Both the position numbers and the translations under genes were made by a program. From the NCBI RefSeq assembly GCF_003332305.1, contig NZ_QOIO01000030.1:1-64000 (forward strand): a stretch of DNA of 64,000 bases, written 5' to 3'. The notes below the pieces were generated by a model that worked only from the letters and a program-made list of their open reading frames with translations, did no database searches and had not been told where the DNA came from. Origin of the DNA: Microvirga aerophila (GTDB taxonomy: Bacteria; Pseudomonadota; Alphaproteobacteria; Rhizobiales; Beijerinckiaceae). Below, piece by piece: positions 861 through 40,893 of the stretch (its first letter is position 1; every line of letters starts with the position of its first letter).

Positions 861-1459
861 AGCATGGGGATCTCTGTGGGCGAGACTCCTATCCGTCGAG
901 GTTTTTGATCCTCACATCCTCAAAGGCTACGCTTCGGGCTAAATGCTAAGTTATTGCTTCGAAATAGGATTACGTCGGTAAAGGAAGCCAAACAGCAACT
1001 GGCTATGGTTTGACAGACGGGTGCGTCCTATCCTGCCAAGCTGCATCTTAAGCCACTTTATCTGAGGTCCACTCACGGATGCTCATGTGGAGCCTTATAG
1101 TGTTGAAAGGGCCCCAGAAGTCCTTGTTTTAAGCCATTTTAGTGGGCCCGAGGGAAGCCCTGCCCTCTTTGAGTGGTAAACGAAATCCCTCACCGATCGT
1201 CTTCAAACGATCGGTTGCTCATAACTACAGGAATGGCTCAATTAAGCCGTTTTCAGACTGTTGAGCACGTGCCTTCAACCGGCTGCGAGGAGGCGTTCCC
1301 GAGTACTTTAGCGCTGCTGTTTTCCAGCAAATATCTGCTGCCCGAACCATAGGATCGTTTCCGCAATGTTATAGCTCAGAGGAGCTGTAACCACGACCCC
1401 AACTGGCCAGTTGCGGCTATCTACAGACATTGTACAAAGGGTTAGCTTTAGGGGGCAAG
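801..1459. other. intergenic, no gene seen; contains one arm of an inverted repeat
   Basis: No open frame here has convincing codon use or a recognisable product. The segment 1102-1191 is related, in inverted orientation, to 9046-9130 (listed separately). The rest looks like decayed DNA. Confidence 0.5.
1102..1191 (+). repeat. diverged inverted repeat, left copy (partner 9046-9130)
   Basis: This segment contains a TTGTTTT run, a CATTTT run and the string AAGCCCTGCCCTC. It aligns end to end with the reverse complement of 9046-9130, with several substitutions and short gaps. The two copies lie on either side of the recombinase, parS and repAB block. They could be remnants of a flanking mobile element or a dispersed intergenic repeat. 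Confidence 0.45.
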
Positions 1460-1935: not shown

Positions 1936-2850
1936 GTGCCCCCCTCCCCTCTCAAAAGCAACTTGATCGGATACGCCCGCGTCTCAACCGAGGACCAAGC
2001 CACCGATCCTCAGACTGACGAGCTTCGCGCTGCCGGCTGTCTTGTGATCCATCAGGAGTTCGCCTCCGGCGCCTCGCGGAGCCGCCCGGTCCTGGCAAGC
2101 CTTTTGCGCAGCATCCAGCCCGGAGAGACACTTGTCGTCGTCCGTCTTGATCGACTAGCGCGATCGGTGAAGCACCTCCTTGAGGTCATCGAGCAGCTGG
2201 AGGCCCGCGGCGCGCATTTCCGTTCCCTGCGCGACCCGATCGACACCACAACCCCACAGGGCATGTTCTCCCTACAGGTTCTGGGGGCTGTTGCCCAATT
2301 GGAGCGGTCCTTGATCGCCGAGCGCACCAAGGCAGGTATCAAGGCTGCGGCCCGACGCGGCAAGCTGCCGGGCAACCCCGGCTTGAGAGCCCGCGATCCG
2401 ATTGCAATTCGCAAGGCGGCGGCCGGCTGGTCTCGCGCTCATCTCGAAGAGGTTCTAGAAACGCTCGACACTTGGCTGCCCACTGTCCGTCGACTGCGCC
2501 CTCAACACACCTGGGATGACGTAGCACGTATCCTCAATGCCTCAGGCCAATCATGGACAGCGGAGCGACTACGCCGGACCACCAAACGTCTAGTGAAGGA
2601 GGGCCTGGCCGAAAAGGCGCTCTTATCGAAGTCCCCTCCCCGGCTCCCGAGCGAACGCCTTCTGACCCTCGTCGCTGGCATTGCTATAGCAGCGCCTGAG
2701 CTCACCCTACGTGACATCGCAGCCCAGTTGGAAAGGATGCGAGAGCGGGCTCCTCGTGGAGGCAGCAGATGGTCTGCTTCATCTGTGAAATCGCTCCTCG
2801 ACCGGGCCAACAGGCTCGGGTTAATTGCCAAGGGCGAAGCCGCAAGCTAG
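1936..2850 (+). CDS. serine recombinase (resolvase/invertase family)
   Basis: The first about 150 residues form a resolvase catalytic domain: IGYARVSTEDQ carries the nucleophilic serine, RLDRLARS is the conserved arginine helix, and QLERSLIAERTKAG precedes the DNA-binding linker. The C-terminal half (residues about 155-304) is longer than the simple helix-turn-helix of Tn3-type resolvases. It contains two winged-helix-like stretches, one around TWDDVARILNASGQSWTAER and one around RWSASSVKSLLDRANRLG. A GTG at 1936 is the only in-frame start giving the full catalytic domain. Beside partition genes a dimer-resolution role is plausible, but this is inference; it could belong to a lost mobile element. 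Confidence 0.85.
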   Translation: MPPSPLKSNLIGYARVSTEDQATDPQTDELRAAGCLVIHQEFASGASRSRPVLASLLRSIQPGETLVVVRLDRLARSVKHLLEVIEQLEARGAHFRSLRDPIDTTTPQGMFSLQVLGAVAQLERSLIAERTKAGIKAAARRGKLPGNPGLRARDPIAIRKAAAGWSRAHLEEVLETLDTWLPTVRRLRPQHTWDDVARILNASGQSWTAERLRRTTKRLVKEGLAEKALLSKSPPRLPSERLLTLVAGIAIAAPELTLRDIAAQLERMRERAPRGGSRWSASSVKSLLDRANRLGLIAKGEAAS

Positions 2851-2866
2851 GCTTATATTCAAATCC

Positions 2867-3265
2867 TCACCAATCCGCATCTGACTCGTCGAAACCTGAC
2901 AGTTCGGCCGCGATCTCCTGCAGCGCCCGATCCAATGCGCTTCGCCGCCCGCCGGTTCTAGTGGAGCGACCAGCCCCCTGCCCTACCCGTACCAATCGTC
3001 GCTTGACGGTCCTAACCCCTCTCACGATCAGGTGGGCAAGCTCATTGTCGCCCAGCTCGTTAACCATATCTTCGATCTCGTGCCTGCTAGCCCGCTTCGC
3101 CAAAGAACTGAGCGACACGGCCTCTATAGGTTGCTCCTCCTGAGTTTTCCTCTGGATGGCAGGGGTTGGACGCTTAGCTCCAGTCGGCTTGGGTGGGGAT
3201 ACTCCGAATAGGTCCCCTTGCATCTCGTCCCATAACTGTCGCCGCCTCGTCGGGCTTCGTCCCAA
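2867..3265 (-). CDS. hypothetical protein, convergent to the recombinase
   Basis: The 132-codon frame has a TTG start at 3265; an ATG at 3223 would give a 118-residue product starting MQGDLFG. The sequence is basic at both ends, has a helical segment around HEIEDMVNELGDNELAHLIV, and ends in an acidic GFDESDADW. I do not recognise a family. It ends 16 bp from the stop of the serine recombinase, so the two genes are convergent. The frame is open and the composition coding-like, but homologues would be needed to confirm it. Confidence 0.45.
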   Translation of the reverse strand: MGRSPTRRRQLWDEMQGDLFGVSPPKPTGAKRPTPAIQRKTQEEQPIEAVSLSSLAKRASRHEIEDMVNELGDNELAHLIVRGVRTVKRRLVRVGQGAGRSTRTGGRRSALDRALQEIAAELSGFDESDADW

Positions 3266-3368
3266 AGGTTGGCCTCCCCTGCCGTGCTGGATGGTAAGAC
3301 GGTCAACCCACTCCCGAATCCGTGATCACCCCGCCCTCCTGGTCTATATTGTCACCGCACGGGGCAGA

Positions 3369-4182
3369 TCATCGGTCCAGCTCCGCAGCGGCTAACGCCG
3401 CGACCTGTAGGTCAATGGCGGCCAACGGATCACCGTCGCCCAAGAACCACGCAGCCGATAGCCCAGTCCAGGCTAGGATCCAGCGTAGTAGCCGTCGCCG
3501 CTCCAGCCCCGCGGCGGCAGTCACGATATCCAGACGCCGCGCAAAGCGGCCGGGCATAGTTGCACCCGGGTTTGTGGGATTGGCCAGATCGGGGTTCGTA
3601 AAGATGTTGGCGAAGTCGAAGCCGCGCTCCCCAACCAAGCGCTTTGGATCGATGGCGAGCCAGCCGCGTGACCCGAAGTCGAGAATGTTTCCGTGGTGCA
3701 AGTCACCGTGCAGAACCCCAACCTCTCGAGGCTCAGCCAGCAGCGTACGGGCCGCCTCAGCGCATTGGACCAGGATGCCCCCATGCGCGGCGGCTGCTGG
3801 CTCCAGGTCACGAAACCAGTGCATCAGTGGGATCAGGTCAGGATACGGTTTCGGCCTGGGGGGCATGCAGCCGGGCTGCAGTAGCACTCAGAATGCGGCA
3901 GGCTTCGTCATCGCGCCCTGATCGGGCCATTTCGGCGAGAGAGGCAGAGCCCGTAGCACGCTCCAACAATAGGGCTTCATTATCTCGAGCCAGAACTCGC
4001 GCCGCGCCTTCTCCGTCCCACCATTCCATTAGCACGGCGCCGAAGCGCTCATCCTCCTCATGGGATATCTTGAGCATGGCCGGCTCGCCACCCTGTGTTA
4101 CCGGCAACAACCGAGCGGCTGGGGTGGTGATAGGATCACCATCGGGAAGCAAGTTCCAAAGGATCAGGTAGCGCTCAAACAT
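3369..4182 (-). pseudogene. aph(6): aminoglycoside (streptomycin) 6-phosphotransferase, frameshifted
   Basis: Two overlapping frames together encode a full-length APH(6)/StrB-type kinase of about 270 residues. The first part (4182-3838) has the N-lobe, including MLKISHEEDERF and the LLLERATGSASLAEMARSGR segment. The second (from about 3887 to 3369) has the catalytic loop VLHGDLHHGNILDF and the metal-binding AIDPKRLVGERGFDFANIF. The break lies in a run of six G on the plus strand (3858-3863). Removing one base restores a continuous LHAPRPKPYPDL. The family phosphorylates streptomycin at the 6-hydroxyl. The rest of the gene looks well conserved, so this is either a recent inactivation or a homopolymer sequencing error. 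Confidence 0.85.
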
Positions 4183-4292
4183 CGTTCAGACATAGCACAG
4201 CGTATAACCGCTTTGGAGACGCAGGTCACAATGAATGATGGGTACCGGGCGCCATGTCTTATGCACGAGGAATGGAGGTGGGTCATTGATCA

Positions 4293-4308
4293 GTTGTCCG
4301 CGGACAAC
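4293..4308. promoter_or_regulatory. parS: parS-like centromere site 1
   Basis: The perfect palindrome GTTGTCCGCGGACAAC matches the repABC parS consensus GTTnnCnGCnGnnAAC at every fixed base. It is one of four identical copies upstream of repA, and RepB is the expected ligand. Confidence 0.8.
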
Positions 4309-4386
4309 TAGGTCTTGAACTCCTAAAAGGCGGGTGGTCGCGGTGTTCGAGTGGCAACGGTCCTTTTTCTGAGACCAAATTTCGGC

Positions 4387-4884
4387 TCAGAATGAACTGG
4401 TGCGCAGCCGACCCTCGTAGTCACGTTTACCGAGCGGCACGCCTCGCGAGCGCAGGATGTTGTATGCGGTGACGGCGTGGAAATGGAAGTTTGGCAGAGA
4501 GAAAGAGAGAATGAAGGTCTCCGGCGTGAAAGCCAGCCGTCTCGGGCCGATCTGGAGGTCCAGGTGCTTGCCCGCGCAGTCATTGATCTCTTCGGGGACG
4601 AACGCCTCCAGCGCCGCTTCTGCCTTGGTGATCATCGCCTGTAGGTCAGTGAAGGGAACAGCTCCGACCAAGGCGGGAGGGGTGAACGCGCCGGTCTTGA
4701 GAGCCTCGACCCCCCACACGGAATGATGCCATGCCGCTTCGATCTGAAAATGAAATGGTGCCATGTCGTCGAAGAGGCGGGTGTTGACGAAGCTATCGGG
4801 ATCGACATCGGTGTTTGAAAAGTGGGTGGCCGCACGGTCGAGAAAGCCTCCGACGGATCTTACGGTTTGCAGGAAGGTCGGCAC
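4387..4884 (-). CDS. DUF1993 family protein
   Basis: The product is 165 residues, the usual length for DUF1993. It carries characteristic segments: an N-terminal LQTVRSVGGFLDRAATHF, MAPFHFQIEAAWHHSVWGVE, and near the C-terminus ETFILSFSLPNFHFHAVTAY with GVPLGKRDYEGRLRTSSF. The fold resembles DinB-like four-helix bundles; the biochemical role is unknown. The start ATG at 4884 gives the canonical MPTFLQTVR N-terminus. It sits between parS site 1 and the IS5 remnant and appears intact, unlike most of its neighbours. Confidence 0.85.
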   Translation of the reverse strand: MPTFLQTVRSVGGFLDRAATHFSNTDVDPDSFVNTRLFDDMAPFHFQIEAAWHHSVWGVEALKTGAFTPPALVGAVPFTDLQAMITKAEAALEAFVPEEINDCAGKHLDLQIGPRRLAFTPETFILSFSLPNFHFHAVTAYNILRSRGVPLGKRDYEGRLRTSSF

Positions 4885-5061
4885 GCTCAGGTCCTAGAGT
4901 GATGTCCGCATTGCCTTCCTCTCTCGAGCAATTTGAACCATAGTGAGTATGTGGCGTGATGGCCACAACGGCAAGGCAAACGCGGTCATAGGCTGGCGGT
5001 CATGCCCATTGGGTGGAACCCTGATTCAGCATTGGCATGAGCCGATACGATCTGATCGACT

Positions 5062-5253
5062 TTGATCGAGCGCTTTTTCTCGAAGCTGAAGCACTTCCGC
5101 CGCGTCGCTACCCGCTACGACAAGCTCACCGCCAACTTCCTCGCCATGGTCCAACTCGCCTCGATGCGGATGTGGCTCCGAGCTTATGAGTCTAAGGCCC
5201 AGGCGCTGGACGTCAGGTTCGTCCCGCTGCAACCAGTGCGCACGAGATTTTAA
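5062..5253 (+). pseudogene. IS5-family transposase C-terminal remnant
   Basis: The translated segment IERFFSKLKHFRRVATRYDK followed by LTANFLAMVQLASMRMWLRA is the conserved end of IS5/IS427-group transposases, including the catalytic glutamate region. No upstream part of the gene and no intact terminal repeats are seen. It lies between parS sites 1 and 2, so the centromere region has taken mobile-element insertions. Confidence 0.75.
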
Positions 5254-5261
5254 ATTCGAGA

Positions 5262-5277
5262 GTTGTCCGCGGACAAC
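5262..5277. promoter_or_regulatory. parS: parS-like centromere site 2
   Basis: This is an identical 16-bp palindrome GTTGTCCGCGGACAAC, 90 bp before site 3. Confidence 0.8.
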
Positions 5278-5351
5278 CCATGCCTCCGACCCGTTCCACA
5301 CTGGGTCCGCCCTTTGAGAAACGGCGGCCTCCACACGGCTCCTTTCAGTCG

Positions 5352-5367
5352 GTTGTCCGCGGACAAC
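5352..5367. promoter_or_regulatory. parS: parS-like centromere site 3
   Basis: This is an identical 16-bp palindrome. Sites 2, 3 and 4 lie within about 260 bp and form the core of the cluster. Confidence 0.8.
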
Positions 5368-5504
5368 CGATCTCTGGGACGAAGGTGGCCAAGTTACAGC
5401 ACGACCGATCCTACAAAGGGCAAGATCATTCCGTTAGCTTAACTCCCGTTTTGGGACAGCGATAGAAAAGGGTAGGGGATGTCCCACGGCACCTTGATTA
5501 ATGA

Positions 5505-5520
5505 GTTGTCCGCGGACAAC
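5505..5520. promoter_or_regulatory. parS: parS-like centromere site 4
   Basis: This identical 16-bp palindrome lies about 37 bp before the start of the broken glycosylase gene. That arrangement suggests either that the gene was read through the centromere or that its promoter was displaced. Confidence 0.8.
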
Positions 5521-5556
5521 TACACTATCCCGCAGATCTCACTCCAGGCCGGACGG

Positions 5557-6103
5557 ATGACCGAAAAGCTCCCAGAGGTTCTCCTTCCGAACCTCAAGAT
5601 CGTATTCTGCGGGACGGCTGCCGGTAACCGCTCTGCCGCGTCCGGTGCCTACTACGCGCAACCCGGCAATCGCTTTTGATCGACCCTCGCTCGGGTAGGG
5701 CTGACATCTAGAGTGCTCCAGCCCCTCGAATTATTGGGATTGCCCAAGTTCGGCATTGGCCTCACTGATCTCGTAAAGAAGGCGTTCGGAACCGTCATCA
5801 GTCTCGCGGATAGCGACTACGACATTGGGTCTTTCGCAGAGCCTATGGTCCAGTTCGCACCCAAGATCATTGCGTTTGACGGGAAGGGGCCGCGGCCAGG
5901 TCCCTCGAGCGCCGAACTGGGAAGATCCCTACTTGATTCAGATCAATGGCTGGGGGGCGCGGACCTTCGTCCTTCCGTCCACGTCAGGGCTGGCATCCCG
6001 TAACTGGCAGATTGAGCCATGGCGTGAGCTGGCACAGGCGGCCTCCATGCTATGCTACCTGAAGGAAACGGCCCCGTTAACCATATATGTGCACTCTCCC
6101 TAA
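5557..6103 (+). pseudogene. mismatch/uracil DNA glycosylase (Mug/TDG-like), broken
   Basis: From ATG 5557 the frame reads LPEVLLPNLKIVFCGTAAGN and then AYYAQPGNRF, the N-terminal active-site region of mismatch-specific DNA glycosylases. A TGA at 5677-5679 replaces the expected tryptophan after PGNRF. The same frame continues with RVGLTSRVLQP, FGIGLTDLVKKA and FAPKIIAFDGKG. A second lesion, a frameshift near 5880-5930, moves the rest into the next frame, which carries TFVLPSTSGLASRNW and WRELAQAA. Two disabling changes make this a real pseudogene rather than a sequencing artefact. The intact enzyme removes uracil or thymine from G mispairs. Confidence 0.75.
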
Positions 6104-6175
6104 GCCACTCCGCTATGGCGCAAACACACAGTTGCTCGCACCGAGAGTAGAGCTGCACTGGGCGGCCCAGGATGG

Positions 6176-6191
6176 GTGGTCCGCGGACAAC
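6176..6191. promoter_or_regulatory. parS: parS-like site 5, one mismatch
   Basis: GTGGTCCGCGGACAAC differs from the other four sites at the third base only. It lies 279 bp upstream of the repA start and is the site nearest the operon. Confidence 0.6.
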
Positions 6192-6469
6192 CGGCGGCTG
6201 GTGCCCAACCGGCGTCTCCGATGAGAATGGCTCCAGCGGCTTGGCCGTCGCCTTTCTGAGAGGGGCCCGTGTCCGACAAGTAGGGGAGGGGGCGGTCGCC
6301 GCTGCCTCCAATTCTTCGGTTCAGTCGAAAGTATTTCGCCCTATTCGGCTCACTTGAGCAAATTTCGGGCGTGCTATTAACCGGTTCTTAACATCCAAAG
6401 GGCGTACTGAGGTCAGCGCAGATTTACCGATCTAGGGCCAATTCCGCGCGGAAACGCAAGGAACCGTAC
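6192..6469 (+). promoter_or_regulatory. repA upstream region
   Basis: This 278-bp stretch without a gene precedes repA. It includes an AT-richer patch with TTAACCGGTTCTTAA at about 6377-6391, an inverted-repeat core around AACCGGTT. That patch is a reasonable place for the repAB promoter and RepA autoregulation, which is known for repABC operons. The ribosome binding site is AAGGAA, about 7 nt before the ATG. The promoter itself is not clearly defined. Confidence 0.4.
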
Positions 6470-7678
6470 ATGACAGCAGTTCAGCAGCCTTCATCCATTC
6501 CTGTAATCCCACCGGCTCTCGACACCGCTTCCAATAAGCAGCAGATCGTCCTAGACGCCGACATCCTCGCAAAAAAGCTACAGGAACACACCCAGAGGAT
6601 CTTTCCCCCGGTTGCGAAGAAGGCCATTCGCCGCTTTACCTCAAGCGAAGCCTCGAAATTCCTAGGCATTCATGAGGGCTATCTCCGGCAACTTGCGGCT
6701 GAGGGCAAAGCTCCCCTCCCAGAGATGCAGCCAAATGGCCGGCGGACTTTCTCGATTGAGGAAGTGAACGCAGTCCGAGAGTTCCTCGAAGGGACCAAGT
6801 CCAACCGCCGTTATATCCCTCATCGAGTTGAGGGCGAGAAGCTCCAAGTCATTTCGGTCATCAATTTCAAGGGCGGAAGTGCGAAGACGACAACGACGGC
6901 CCACTTAGCTCAGTATCTTGCTCTTCGCGGTTATCGCGTGCTCTCTATCGACCTAGACCCGCAAGCCAGCCTTTCGACACTCTTCGGAAACCAGCCGGAA
7001 CTCGACGTGCGGGACAACGAAACGCTGTATGGGGCAATCCGGTTCGACGAGCATCGTACCCGGATTGAGAACATCATCCGGTCGACTTACCTCCCGGGCC
7101 TCCATTTCATCCCGGGCAATCTCGAGCTCATGGAATTTGAGACAACTGCGCCTGCGGGAAGGAACTCCAAGATCTTCTTCATGCAGATTCTGGAGGCCCT
7201 GGAGTCGGTGGACCAGCACTACGACGTTGTCGTCATGGATTGCCCACCGAACCTCGGTTACCTGACCATGGCGGCTCTATGTGCTGCAACATCGCTTCTT
7301 GTGACAGTTCATCCGCAGATGCTTGATGTGCTGTCCATGGCTCAATTCCTCAGGATGGTTGGCGAAGTCACGACTACTCTTGGAAGGCACCGCGACGACT
7401 ACGACTGGCTGCGCTACCTTGTCACTCGATACGAGCCAAGTGATGGCCCTCAGAACCAGATGGTTGGATTCATGCGGTCACTGTTCGGACATCGCGTGCT
7501 GCAGAACAGCATGCTGAAGAGCACCGCGGTTGCGGATTCCGGGATCACAAAGCAAACCTTGTACGAAGTCGATCGGACGAAATTCAACAAGGGTACTTAC
7601 GACAGAGCTTTAGAGGCCTTGGACCTCGTTAACGGCGAAATCGAAGATCAAATCCGTAACGCGTGGGGGAGGCAGTAA
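6470..7678 (+). CDS. repA: plasmid partitioning protein RepA (ParA ATPase)
   Basis: This 402-residue ParA-type ATPase has the N-terminal extension typical of repABC RepA. Residues about 50-110 contain a MerR-like helix-turn-helix (SSEASKFLGIHEGYLRQLA). The deviant Walker A FKGGSAKTTTTAHLAQYLA follows at about residue 130, then IDLDPQASLSTLFG and the Walker B-like VVMDCPPNLGYL. The C-terminal DSGITKQTLYEVDRTKF is also RepA-specific. RepA drives segregation together with RepB and represses its own operon. The stop codon overlaps the repB start (TAATG). The lack of a downstream repC is the unusual point. Confidence 0.95.
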   Translation: MTAVQQPSSIPVIPPALDTASNKQQIVLDADILAKKLQEHTQRIFPPVAKKAIRRFTSSEASKFLGIHEGYLRQLAAEGKAPLPEMQPNGRRTFSIEEVNAVREFLEGTKSNRRYIPHRVEGEKLQVISVINFKGGSAKTTTTAHLAQYLALRGYRVLSIDLDPQASLSTLFGNQPELDVRDNETLYGAIRFDEHRTRIENIIRSTYLPGLHFIPGNLELMEFETTAPAGRNSKIFFMQILEALESVDQHYDVVVMDCPPNLGYLTMAALCAATSLLVTVHPQMLDVLSMAQFLRMVGEVTTTLGRHRDDYDWLRYLVTRYEPSDGPQNQMVGFMRSLFGHRVLQNSMLKSTAVADSGITKQTLYEVDRTKFNKGTYDRALEALDLVNGEIEDQIRNAWGRQ

Positions 7679-8811
7679 TGGCGCGCAAGAATCTTATTTC
7701 CTTTGGGAACAATGATGCTGATGGCTCCCCCAGCGAGAACCTTGGGACTGCTGGAGCACCCGCTCCCAACCCTGTAGGGGAACTCCAGGCCGAGGCCGCT
7801 GCTGCAATCACCAGTGATCGTCCTCTCGCCGACCGGCCACTAGCCCCTCGTCCTCTTGCAGATCGTCCACTCGCAAGCAACGTTGCTAGCGAGCGGATCG
7901 CCATGCTCCCAACCCAGCTTCCATCTCTCAAGACCTCGCCTCTTCGGGCAATGAAGGAAGCTGTCGATTCTGTTGGTCGCGTTGAGGAACTCGAGGAACA
8001 GCTTAGAGCTGGTCACACGATTGTCGATCTCGATCCTTCAGAGATTGATGCGTCGTTTGTTCCTGATCGAATGGCCTACTCAGACGAAGCGCATAAAGAG
8101 CTCGTCGCAGCCATCAAGTCTGAAGGGCAGCAAGTTCCGATCCTGGTACGGCCACACCCGGAGCTCTCTGGGCGGTACCAGGTAGCCTACGGCCACCGTC
8201 GACTTCGAGCGATCAAGGAACTCGGCATAAAGATCAGAGCCGTCGTTCGAGAACTCACCGATGAGCAACTCGTCGTTGCTCAAGGCCAAGAGAACAATGC
8301 CCGCACAAACCTGAGCTTCATTGAGAAGGCTCGTTTCGCATCACGCCTGGAAGAGCGCGGCTTCCGGCGGGAAGTGATAATGCAGGCACTTTGCGTCGAC
8401 AAATCTATGCTTTCAAAGATGCTCTCAGTCGCAAACGCAGTTCCCGGTCACATCATTGATGCAATCGGCCCTGCACCGAAGATTGGCAGAAGGAAATGGG
8501 AGGACCTTTCCGGATTGATCAAGCCACGCACCATTGACAATGTTCGCAGTGCGATCGAGCGGGCCGAGAAGGCGGGCCGCGACAGCGATGCCATTTTCGA
8601 AGCTGCGTATAGGGCACTTATTACGAGGGAACCTGGCTCAAAACCTGAAGCCTGGAATGCTCCCGATGGGCTCCGTCTCGCGAAGATTTTAGTTACGGAA
8701 GACAGGTTCTCTCTTGTCATTGATCGGAAGGTGTCCCCAGAATTTGGGGACTTTCTCAAATCGCGACTAGAAGATCTCTACAACGAGTTCCAAGGCGCCA
8801 AGCAAGATTGA
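7678..8811 (+). CDS. repB: plasmid partitioning protein RepB (ParB family)
   Basis: I place the start at the ATG 7678 that overlaps the repA stop, giving MARKNLISFG and 377 residues, the usual RepB length. Residues about 20-70 form a low-complexity stretch of repeated DRPLA/PRPLA units. The ParB core follows: SEGQQVPILVRPHPELSGRY, then YQVAYGHRRLRAIKELG, and later GQENNARTNLSFIEKARFA with the central helix-turn-helix (VDKSMLSKMLSVANAVP). RepB binds parS and stimulates RepA ATPase. The likely targets are the five palindromes at 4293-6191. Confidence 0.95.
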   Translation: MARKNLISFGNNDADGSPSENLGTAGAPAPNPVGELQAEAAAAITSDRPLADRPLAPRPLADRPLASNVASERIAMLPTQLPSLKTSPLRAMKEAVDSVGRVEELEEQLRAGHTIVDLDPSEIDASFVPDRMAYSDEAHKELVAAIKSEGQQVPILVRPHPELSGRYQVAYGHRRLRAIKELGIKIRAVVRELTDEQLVVAQGQENNARTNLSFIEKARFASRLEERGFRREVIMQALCVDKSMLSKMLSVANAVPGHIIDAIGPAPKIGRRKWEDLSGLIKPRTIDNVRSAIERAEKAGRDSDAIFEAAYRALITREPGSKPEAWNAPDGLRLAKILVTEDRFSLVIDRKVSPEFGDFLKSRLEDLYNEFQGAKQD

Positions 8812-8868: not shown

Positions 8869-9045
8869 ATTGACCGCACTCCTAGACAGATTGGAGCAAT
8901 CAGAAAGTGGGCTCGTGGTATAACGACCAAGGCGGTAGCAGGGGAGGGTGCCGAACTTGGAGGGCTTGCTATCCACAAACGAGCCTTTGTATACACTCCA
9001 AAGTTGGGTGCAATGGACCGTTTGAAGACGTCTTTTAAGCCAGTC

Positions 9046-9130
9046 TGTTAACCAGCCGGGGAGGGCAGGGCTTTCCCGCATCCAGCAAAAATGCTTTGAA
9101 AACAACGGCCTTAGTGGCCTGGCTGGCAAC
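9046..9130 (-). repeat. diverged inverted repeat, right copy (partner 1102-1191)
   Basis: The reverse complement shows the same order of motifs as 1102-1191: a TTGTTTT run, a CATTTTT run, then AAGCCCTGCCCTC and a GGTTAA-like end. The copies are roughly 70 percent alike by eye. Confidence 0.45.
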
Positions 9131-40795: not shown

Positions 40796-40893
40796 ACATC
40801 GTGTGGAAAAGTGGCTCCGGTTTTCCGCAGAGAACGATGCGCCCTCCCGGAGCATCGTGCGGAAACTTTCCCGGTTTTCCGCCAGAAGCGGAT
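40796..40893. repeat. REP-like palindromic repeats in the RraA/cyclase control region
   Basis: Two related units lie in tandem: CATCGTGTGGAAAAGTGGC continuing with CCGGTTTTCCGCAGAGAACG (40798-40838), and CATCGTGCGGAAACTTTCCC followed by GGTTTTCCGCC (40853-40882). Each can fold on GGAAAA/TTTTCC and CATCGT/ACGATG. Repeats of this type are dispersed in many alphaproteobacterial genomes. It is not a control element of a known kind. Confidence 0.6.

Follow-up and report, generated by a model that had tools for sequence, protein, structure and literature searches.

The 64,000-nucleotide window analysed here (positions 1 to 64,000, forward strand, of contig NZ_QOIO01000030.1 of the Microvirga aerophila assembly GCF_003332305.1) carries the partition genes of a repABC-type replicon, repA and repB, behind an array of putative parS centromere sites, and lacks the repC gene for the initiator RepC that would be expected directly downstream of repB. 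The first gene, repA (6470..7678, + strand), encodes a ParA-type partition ATPase of 402 aa that scores 580.9 bits against TIGR03453 (cut-off 348.45), and repB (7678..8811, + strand) encodes a protein of 377 aa, by family a ParB-type parS-binding protein, that scores 358.8 bits against TIGR03454 (cut-off 201.5). Both genes are intact and overlap by one base. The five 16-bp parS sites, to which no strand is assigned, lie upstream of repA: sites 1 to 4 (4293..4308, 5262..5277, 5352..5367 and 5505..5520) are perfect copies of the palindrome GTTGTCCGCGGACAAC, while site 5 (6176..6191) carries one mismatch. The palindromic repABC parS consensus printed in the excerpted text of PMC9040568, GTTNNCNGCNGNNAAC, is represented near repAB by four exact sites and one with a mismatch. 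In the whole 6.0-Mb draft genome the exact 16-mer occurs at four places, all of them sites 1 to 4. A loose form of the consensus matches eight forward-strand places genome-wide, four of which are the same sites and one of which is a non-palindromic match at window position 40820, against three places for its reversed control pattern. When up to two mismatches are allowed, the loose pattern gives no clear signal (43 matches in the window, 30 expected, 44 in the largest shuffle); hence the evidence for parS is the four identical copies. Pattern search and family models thus bear out the description in the initial annotation of four perfect palindromes and a near-perfect one upstream of intact repA and repB, and its statement that no repC follows holds for the full contig (C109, 72,654 bp), on which PF03428 finds no match at E 0.001.

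Two plasmid records match the window RepB at 90-95%, those of M. lotononidis CP141049 (RepA 99.0%, RepB 93.7% identical) and Microvirga sp. VF16 pMVF16-5 (98.5% and 92.1%), and the neighbourhood, parS sites included, is syntenic among the three, so that the position of the array is kept in two other species. Relative to repA, the sites stand at -2177, -1208, -1118, -965 and -294 in the window, at -1286, -1208, -1118, -967 and -293 in M. lotononidis and at -1285, -1117, -973 and -294 in VF16; the last carries one change in VF16, as it does one mismatch in the window, and is perfect in M. lotononidis. The centromere had been described as spread over 1.9 kb. This is its extent in the window, but the array measures about 1 kb in the relatives (-1286 to -293), and the remainder comes from an 888-bp insertion between sites 1 and 2 (4313..5200, no strand), which stretches the conserved array, is absent from both closest relatives and is the main difference from them. 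A broken gene for a mismatch-specific DNA-glycosylase (5501..5886, + strand), whose start is overlapped by site 4, runs to just before site 5, and its relative on pMVF16-5 is annotated as intact. Palindromes of their own are found near repA on four other Microvirga plasmids (W06, W07, W13 and W11), W11 having one upstream of repA and one 1286 bp past the repA start.

To place the locus within the genus, RepB (TIGR03454) and RepC (PF03428) were mapped on 13 complete Microvirga plasmids (W01-W13) from four strains; a RepC match on W04 that stayed below the cut-off (L025, E 0.006) and the Bosea plasmid pANAM02, which lay outside the reach of the RepB search, were left out of the counts. All 13 plasmids carry at least one full RepB and at least one RepC. 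On 11 of them, however, repAB and repC occur only apart, separated by 91 to 515 kb on the seven split plasmids measured. The other two are CP102847 (W11), with a contiguous repABC operon, and CP069356 (W12), with a contiguous repABC operon and a distant repC; contiguous operons also occur on contigs G013:C4 and G019:C6, which contig order marks as additional plasmids of those two strains, and on G038:C1. Among 48 Microvirga genomes, the strains of the 13 plasmids included, 36 encode RepB (E 1e-30). Of their 85 RepB, 24 are followed within 2.5 kb by repC (E 1e-10), 35 lack it although 2.5 kb or more of sequence follows them, and 26 were not assessable. Searches beside the split repAB loci tested for a repC remnant gave only chance-level matches (E 0.19 or worse). 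The absence of repC beside repAB is therefore not confined to a draft contig, which makes an assembly accident unlikely, including the case in which a repC lies just beyond an assembly error; by its sequence the window locus is a native partition module common to complete Microvirga plasmids. In this module, called P below, a serine recombinase gene, the parS array, repA and repB follow one another. The source genome itself does encode RepC: its draft (184 contigs) contains one repAB and two RepC genes, on contigs C103 and C57.

The distant repC is itself part of a cassette, module R. In 20 loci it is preceded, about 166 bp upstream, by a gene for a protein of 70 aa (69 and 66 aa in two), which we named by eye as ribbon-helix-helix-like (RHH, CopG-type). 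In family scans two members had no NCBIfam match; two scored 20.4 and 16.8 bits against the MazE-like Pfam family PF11455 (cut-off 22) and a third gave no match to it. The idea that this small gene was a stub of repB was rejected, as it encodes a separate protein. Exactly one RHH-repC cassette is present on each of W02-W10 and W13, that is, on ten of the ten split plasmids with a single repAB; W12 has one as well and W11 none. The leader between the two genes is conserved (mean column identity 86% over 19 sequences) and its consensus fold contains 45 pairs, four with two-sided changes and most invariant. It combines a terminator-like hairpin on the antisense strand with a stem bearing a hypervariable loop, and so resembles the leader of a counter-transcribed RNA (ctRNA); an antisense RNA would be transcribed from it. 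Read by eye, the loop differs among all co-resident cassettes compared (five in VF16, four in M. ossetica and four in M. lotononidis, three of these on one plasmid), even where the RepC proteins are near-identical (W05/W06 in M. ossetica, W01a/W13 in M. lotononidis). Such plasmid-specific variation would fit what is expected of an incompatibility determinant, and the two pairs suggest that RepC has been exchanged between plasmids in one cell. Since the contiguous Microvirga operons hold a related leader between repB and repC, the split falls at the boundary between repB and the leader. On the VF16 and M. ossetica plasmids a YhaN gene, an exonuclease gene and R follow one another in a common order. 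A repC with a similar leader and no RHH gene was also seen on what are taken as the chromosomes of G041, G032 and G038, the largest contigs there (L270, L271 and L272), and on C57 (L006). On pMVF16-5, which has its repC near 241 kb and its repAB at 426-430 kb, genes for an IncQ-type RepC and a RepA-family helicase lie about 3 kb from RHH-repC (L030 10043-11814).

In the source genome, module R is found on C103. Its orphan RepC (P0003) passes the RepABC_RepC model NF040974 (220.2 bits, cut-off 150) and falls under the cut-off of PRK13824 (174.5 against 390 bits); its RHH protein is 67% identical to that of pMVF16-5. The ctRNA that repABC operons hold between repB and repC has no place at the window locus, which lacks repC; a ctRNA-like leader is found instead on C103, and its loop is identical to that of pMVF16-5, the plasmid whose P module is a near-twin of the one in the window. 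This suggests, without proving it, a single plasmid comprising both C103 and C109. Despite the identical loop, the RepCs of C103 and pMVF16-5 share only 72.7% identity, and therefore the parts of the modules seem to reassort. Matches of C103 pieces to plasmids are patchy and do not settle its replicon. For C57, the signs are divided between chromosome and plasmid: its RepC clusters with W06b, W03b and copies from the largest contigs of other genomes, but its neighbourhood also matches plasmids.

We then analysed strand polarity with GGGNAGGG, the published FtsK-orienting polar sequence (KOPS), an FtsK-type motif and the one kept out of six related motifs first tried. A first, exploratory set comprised W02, W09 and W11, each read whole, and W10, read with a 60-kb gap and later whole; a later set was sampled, at about 20 of every 45 kb for W05, W08 and W13, of which W05 and W13 were covered further around P and R, and at 20 of every 85 kb for W07, whose last 108 kb were missing. 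The cumulative strand count of GGGNAGGG has its minimum at repAB on all four plasmids of the first set, and again at repAB on W05, W08, W13 and W07, at 0.007, 0.007, 0.001 and 0.016 of plasmid length from repB; the W08 switch is bracketed by positions 289,828 and 321,247, around repAB. On all seven split plasmids mapped, no more than 1.6% of plasmid length thus separates the switch from repAB, against 17-47% for repC. With the minimum taken as uniform under the null, the combined p at P is 1.5e-5 for the four later plasmids and 5e-8 for the seven split ones, as against 0.96 for repC. Shuffle tests of the amplitude gave p of 0.011 or less on six of the eight plasmids, the others being W11 (0.087) and W07 (0.106). 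Over the seven split plasmids, GGGNAGGG ranks first among 50 scored letter permutations both in closeness to P and in amplitude; the position used for P here, immediately before repA, was set once the first maps had been seen, and six of 56 permutations with too few sites were dropped. The median permutation, too, comes closer to P than chance (mean distance 0.14 vs 0.25) and the reversed motif has its minimum near P on four of the seven, so that a general strand bias accounts for part of the signal. Other G-rich motifs share the polarity at P partly, the minimum of AGGGNAG lying away from P on W10, W05 and W13. On W06, the GGGNAGGG sites listed, which lack 10 of the 35 on the reverse strand, reach their lowest point at 396,976, immediately before repA, and on W04, counted on the forward strand only, two of 62 sites precede 139,003, with repA at 139,654.

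The contig of the window behaves likewise. The strand of GGGNAGGG switches within 2981..5470, with seven of seven sites on the minus strand to the left and 20 of 21 on the plus strand to the right, to the contig end (Fisher p 7e-6 with the cut chosen afterwards; best-switch permutation p 1.5e-4), and the parS array begins inside this interval. The reversed motif GGGANGGG is also polar on C109 (3/3 minus to the left, 14/15 plus to the right), and GGNGGAGG is not. C103 carries 21 minus and four plus GGGNAGGG sites and shows no switch at repC. With one polarity per arm, GGGNAGGG behaves as KOPS do and may be recognised by the FtsK of Microvirga. The support from GC skew is mixed. It favours P with combined p of 0.0045 over all bases and 0.001 over intergenic ones, against 0.89 and 0.81 for R, which none of the measures favours overall. 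Third-codon GC skew and gene orientation showed no preference for P or R (p for P 0.50 and 0.66), the third-position skew of W07 leaning to R; plain GC-skew minima lie far from P on W10 (also when whole), W08 and W07; and GC skew is weak even in the contiguous control W11, where P ranks at 0.56 over all bases and 0.17 over intergenic ones. A dif pattern had no match with up to three mismatches on W11, W02, W09 and W10 (W10 minus 60 kb). The distance between P and R on ten plasmids gives no more than a hint that R lies nearer the terminus than by chance (Kolmogorov-Smirnov p 0.13).

Taken together, we read the window locus as P, the half with the centromere and the partition genes, of a repABC-type replicon whose two halves are separate in Microvirga, R lying here on C103, and give this reading a probability of about 0.8. 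As in ordinary repABC plasmids, the parS array would be the target of RepA and RepB, RepB presumably binding the sites, so that P would partition the replicon and form its segregation pole. R, elsewhere on the same replicon, would supply the RepC on which replication depends; it would be the active initiator module and would hold the origin, oriV, as in Rhizobium etli p42d, and its RHH protein may have taken over the autoregulation carried out by RepA and RepB. The earlier proposal of a partition-only locus served by another initiator stands in its first part, the partition module being alone, but the likely initiator is the expected RepC in a module of its own. An integrated plasmid remnant in the chromosome, the other origin first proposed, would suit a draft of 184 contigs and a locus surrounded by a recombinase gene, an insertion and broken genes. 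We consider it very improbable, as near-identical P modules reside on complete plasmids of two other Microvirga, repA and repB are intact with four perfect parS sites, and the polarity pole falls at the array as it does on plasmids.

Several observations weigh against a split replicon as we describe it, or against parts of it. All the support is computational. Firstly, the modules do not pair everywhere: M. lotononidis CP141049 (W01) has two repAB but three RHH-linked repC; distant repC copies W01d, W01e, W03b, W04b and W06b have no RHH gene; two of the 36 RepB-bearing genomes, both drafts, have no RepC at E 1e-10 (repAB on G033:C2, L266 and L267, and on G024:C29 and C44, L268 and L269); and a broken repC follows one repAB of G024. 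Secondly, covariation support for the leader fold is weak, its pairs being mostly invariant (term -0.22), and Rfam gave no match at E 0.1 in 15 leader loci. Thirdly, C103 and C109 are linked by type only and the assembly does not join them, and the second repC of the source genome, on C57, is without RHH and may be chromosomal or plasmid-borne. The split plasmids W03, W04, W05, W08, W09 and W10 have no palindrome of the pattern used near repA. Finally, strand polarity points to P and not to R, and an origin inside repC predicts otherwise. Short repeated stretches of 24-28 bp are shared by W03 and W04 upstream of repA (loci L013 and L014, ~6090-6630), and are possibly divergent parS sites.

The last of these points concerns where replication starts, a matter on which the alternatives are compatible with the split itself, so that their odds overlap with it. 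In p42d, according to the excerpted text of PMC3155836, RepC is sufficient for replication and acts only in cis, and oriV lies inside repC; the origin is therefore expected at R. The pole of the sequence polarity, in contrast, leads one to expect it at P. Three readings are open to this conflict: a polarity anchored on the centromere, an origin at P, or a recent move of the origin. On the first, which we hold possible but less likely than not, the origin would lie inside repC, at R, up to nearly half a circle from the centromere at P, and the polar code would be anchored on the latter. This is reasonable because the GC skew of P. aeruginosa, at its terminus end, tracks dif and not replication termination (PMC6199493, in excerpt). 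We hold it doubtful that replication starts instead at P, beside parS, with RepC acting in trans from R, or with DnaA or an unrecognised initiator opening the origin, in which case R would be an initiator gene without the main origin. The GGGNAGGG minimum at repAB on the seven split plasmids and on the contiguous control would follow directly, as would the whole-sequence and intergenic GC skews (0.0045 and 0.001 for P, 0.89 and 0.81 for R), and G033 has P and no RepC at E 1e-10. It is opposed by the cis-only action of p42d RepC with its internal oriV and by the lack of a repC remnant at those split repAB loci that were searched. Further, none of the 13 plasmids encodes a PF10134 initiator, other initiator families and DnaA sites not having been searched, and W09 has nowhere a member of the RHE_PE00001 gene family seen beside many repAB loci; neither module is preferred by third-codon GC skew or by gene orientation, and GC skew is weak even on W11.

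The remaining alternative, a recent move of the origin from P to R, is bound up with the RepC and RepB trees. A contiguous repABC would have stood at P, an RHH-repC cassette would have spread, the old repC would have been lost, and the polarity would be a fossil. Of the 20 RHH-linked RepCs, 17 form a shallow clade (100/99), whereas the RepBs are deeply split, and there are apparent intermediates: W12, with both a contiguous repABC and an RHH-repC, Methylobacterium nodulans pMNOD01, and G024 with its broken repC after repB. Yet the RHH-linked RepCs of C103, G023 and pMNOD01 fall outside that clade, so that the cassette may be old; the four contiguous-type RepBs included form one clade (98/97), so that a single old split is another possibility; and the gene order YhaN-exonuclease-R common to VF16 and M. 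ossetica plasmids indicates that R is not newly placed there. A recent move appears unlikely to us. The three contiguous RepCs included (W11, W12 and G038) form another clade (100/99), and by eye the RepB and RepC topologies differ. The trees omit most of the 24 contiguous RepB/repABC systems of the genus, and the program warns of long branches, with pMNOD01, W01d, W01e, W04b and the W07 RepB among the unsure placements. On pMNOD01 (L039), RHH-repC stands 3 kb upstream of repAB and a broken repC follows repB, an arrangement from outside Microvirga that may be intermediate to the split.

The Microvirga systems share with the repABC replicons of Alphaproteobacteria (R. etli p42d, pSymA, Ti plasmids) RepA and RepB, the consensus 16-bp parS upstream of repA, a RepC of the RepABC_RepC equivalog and a ctRNA-like leader before repC; they differ in having repC and its leader outside the operon, as a cassette with the RHH gene. 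In the excerpts of PMC10194956 and PMC3898782, pSmeLPU88b and R. grahamii likewise have repC with its own ctRNA and no repAB, and repAB operons with no repC, but there the extra copies accompany a complete repABC, whereas 11 of the 13 Microvirga plasmids hold separated halves only. The excerpted survey of repABC parS sites in PMC9040568 includes pAMI4 3parS and Allorhizobium vitis chromosome 2 and describes extra parS about 12 to 90 kb from repABC; in these loci repAB and repC are together and parS alone is remote, whereas in Microvirga repAB and parS together are remote from repC. As a legend there notes surveyed replicons in which repC is absent, repAB without repC at the locus was known before. 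The strand bias of GGGNAGGG and its sharp switch resemble KOPS on chromosomes and large replicons (PMC6199493 and PMC13342612, in excerpt); unlike there, where the upstream pole is the origin adjoining parS, the Microvirga pole is at parS with repC far off. The excerpt of PMC6199493 calls parS invariably close to the origin, and that of PMC13342612, on KOPS and repABC, does not mention Microvirga. In the open-licence full-text literature we found no description of the Microvirga repABC split or of an RHH-linked repC; one may exist elsewhere. The repABC operon is known for uniting partition and replication, and Microvirga mostly dismantles it, keeping both genes on all 13 complete plasmids. The genus is thereby a natural experiment on whether sequence polarity tracks origin or centromere, and the split bears on copy control without autoregulation by RepA and RepB and on the compatibility of co-resident plasmids with near-identical initiators (two pairs). 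Were the centromere indeed the anchor, segregation would set the origin end of KOPS polarity in bacteria, and parS need not adjoin the origin.

Around the array, the insertion holds a DUF1993 reading frame (4387-4884, - strand; 137.7 bits, cut-off 23.4) and a piece of a DDE transposase (5062-5202; PF13586 24.2 bits, below the cut-off of 29.2). To the left lies a broken gene of the aminoglycoside-phosphotransferase family (3369..4182, - strand) in two reading frames, whose pMVF16-5 relative is annotated as intact. The serine recombinase gene (1936..2850, + strand; PF00239 139.9 bits) is found upstream of repA here and in most P modules examined, and was not found beside the module at W03, W04 and G018:C2. 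A conserved non-coding flank element (FE) of about 120 bp occurs on one or both sides of P, inverted when double. In the window its left copy (1085..1240, - strand) is inverted relative to the right copy (8985..9130, + strand), and the pair brackets the recombinase gene, parS and repAB, with outward-pointing GGGNAGGG inside FE. By blastn at E 0.01 the right copy matches 10 of 72,556 plasmid records, all Microvirga, with W04, W06 and W11 not among them. FE is present in 27 of the 36 RepB-bearing Microvirga genomes and in none of the 12 others; 71 of its 83 matches in the genus lie within 10 kb of a RepB, and 12 have no RepB detected that near. In four loci FE stands 57-67 bp from the recombinase start. 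A promoter, a recombination site or an origin element are possible roles for it. Genes of the RHE_PE00001 family (DUF1612 + HTH_13) flank repAB on many plasmids, sometimes on both sides and inverted (L012 2692-3849 and 11646-12806; also L014, L262, L263 and L264). This family was rejected as a universal missing initiator, there being no member anywhere on W09 and W11 (tblastn E 1e-6); it is a recurrent DNA-binding neighbour of repAB, and its genes, where they occur, often stand some 200-290 bp downstream of FE.

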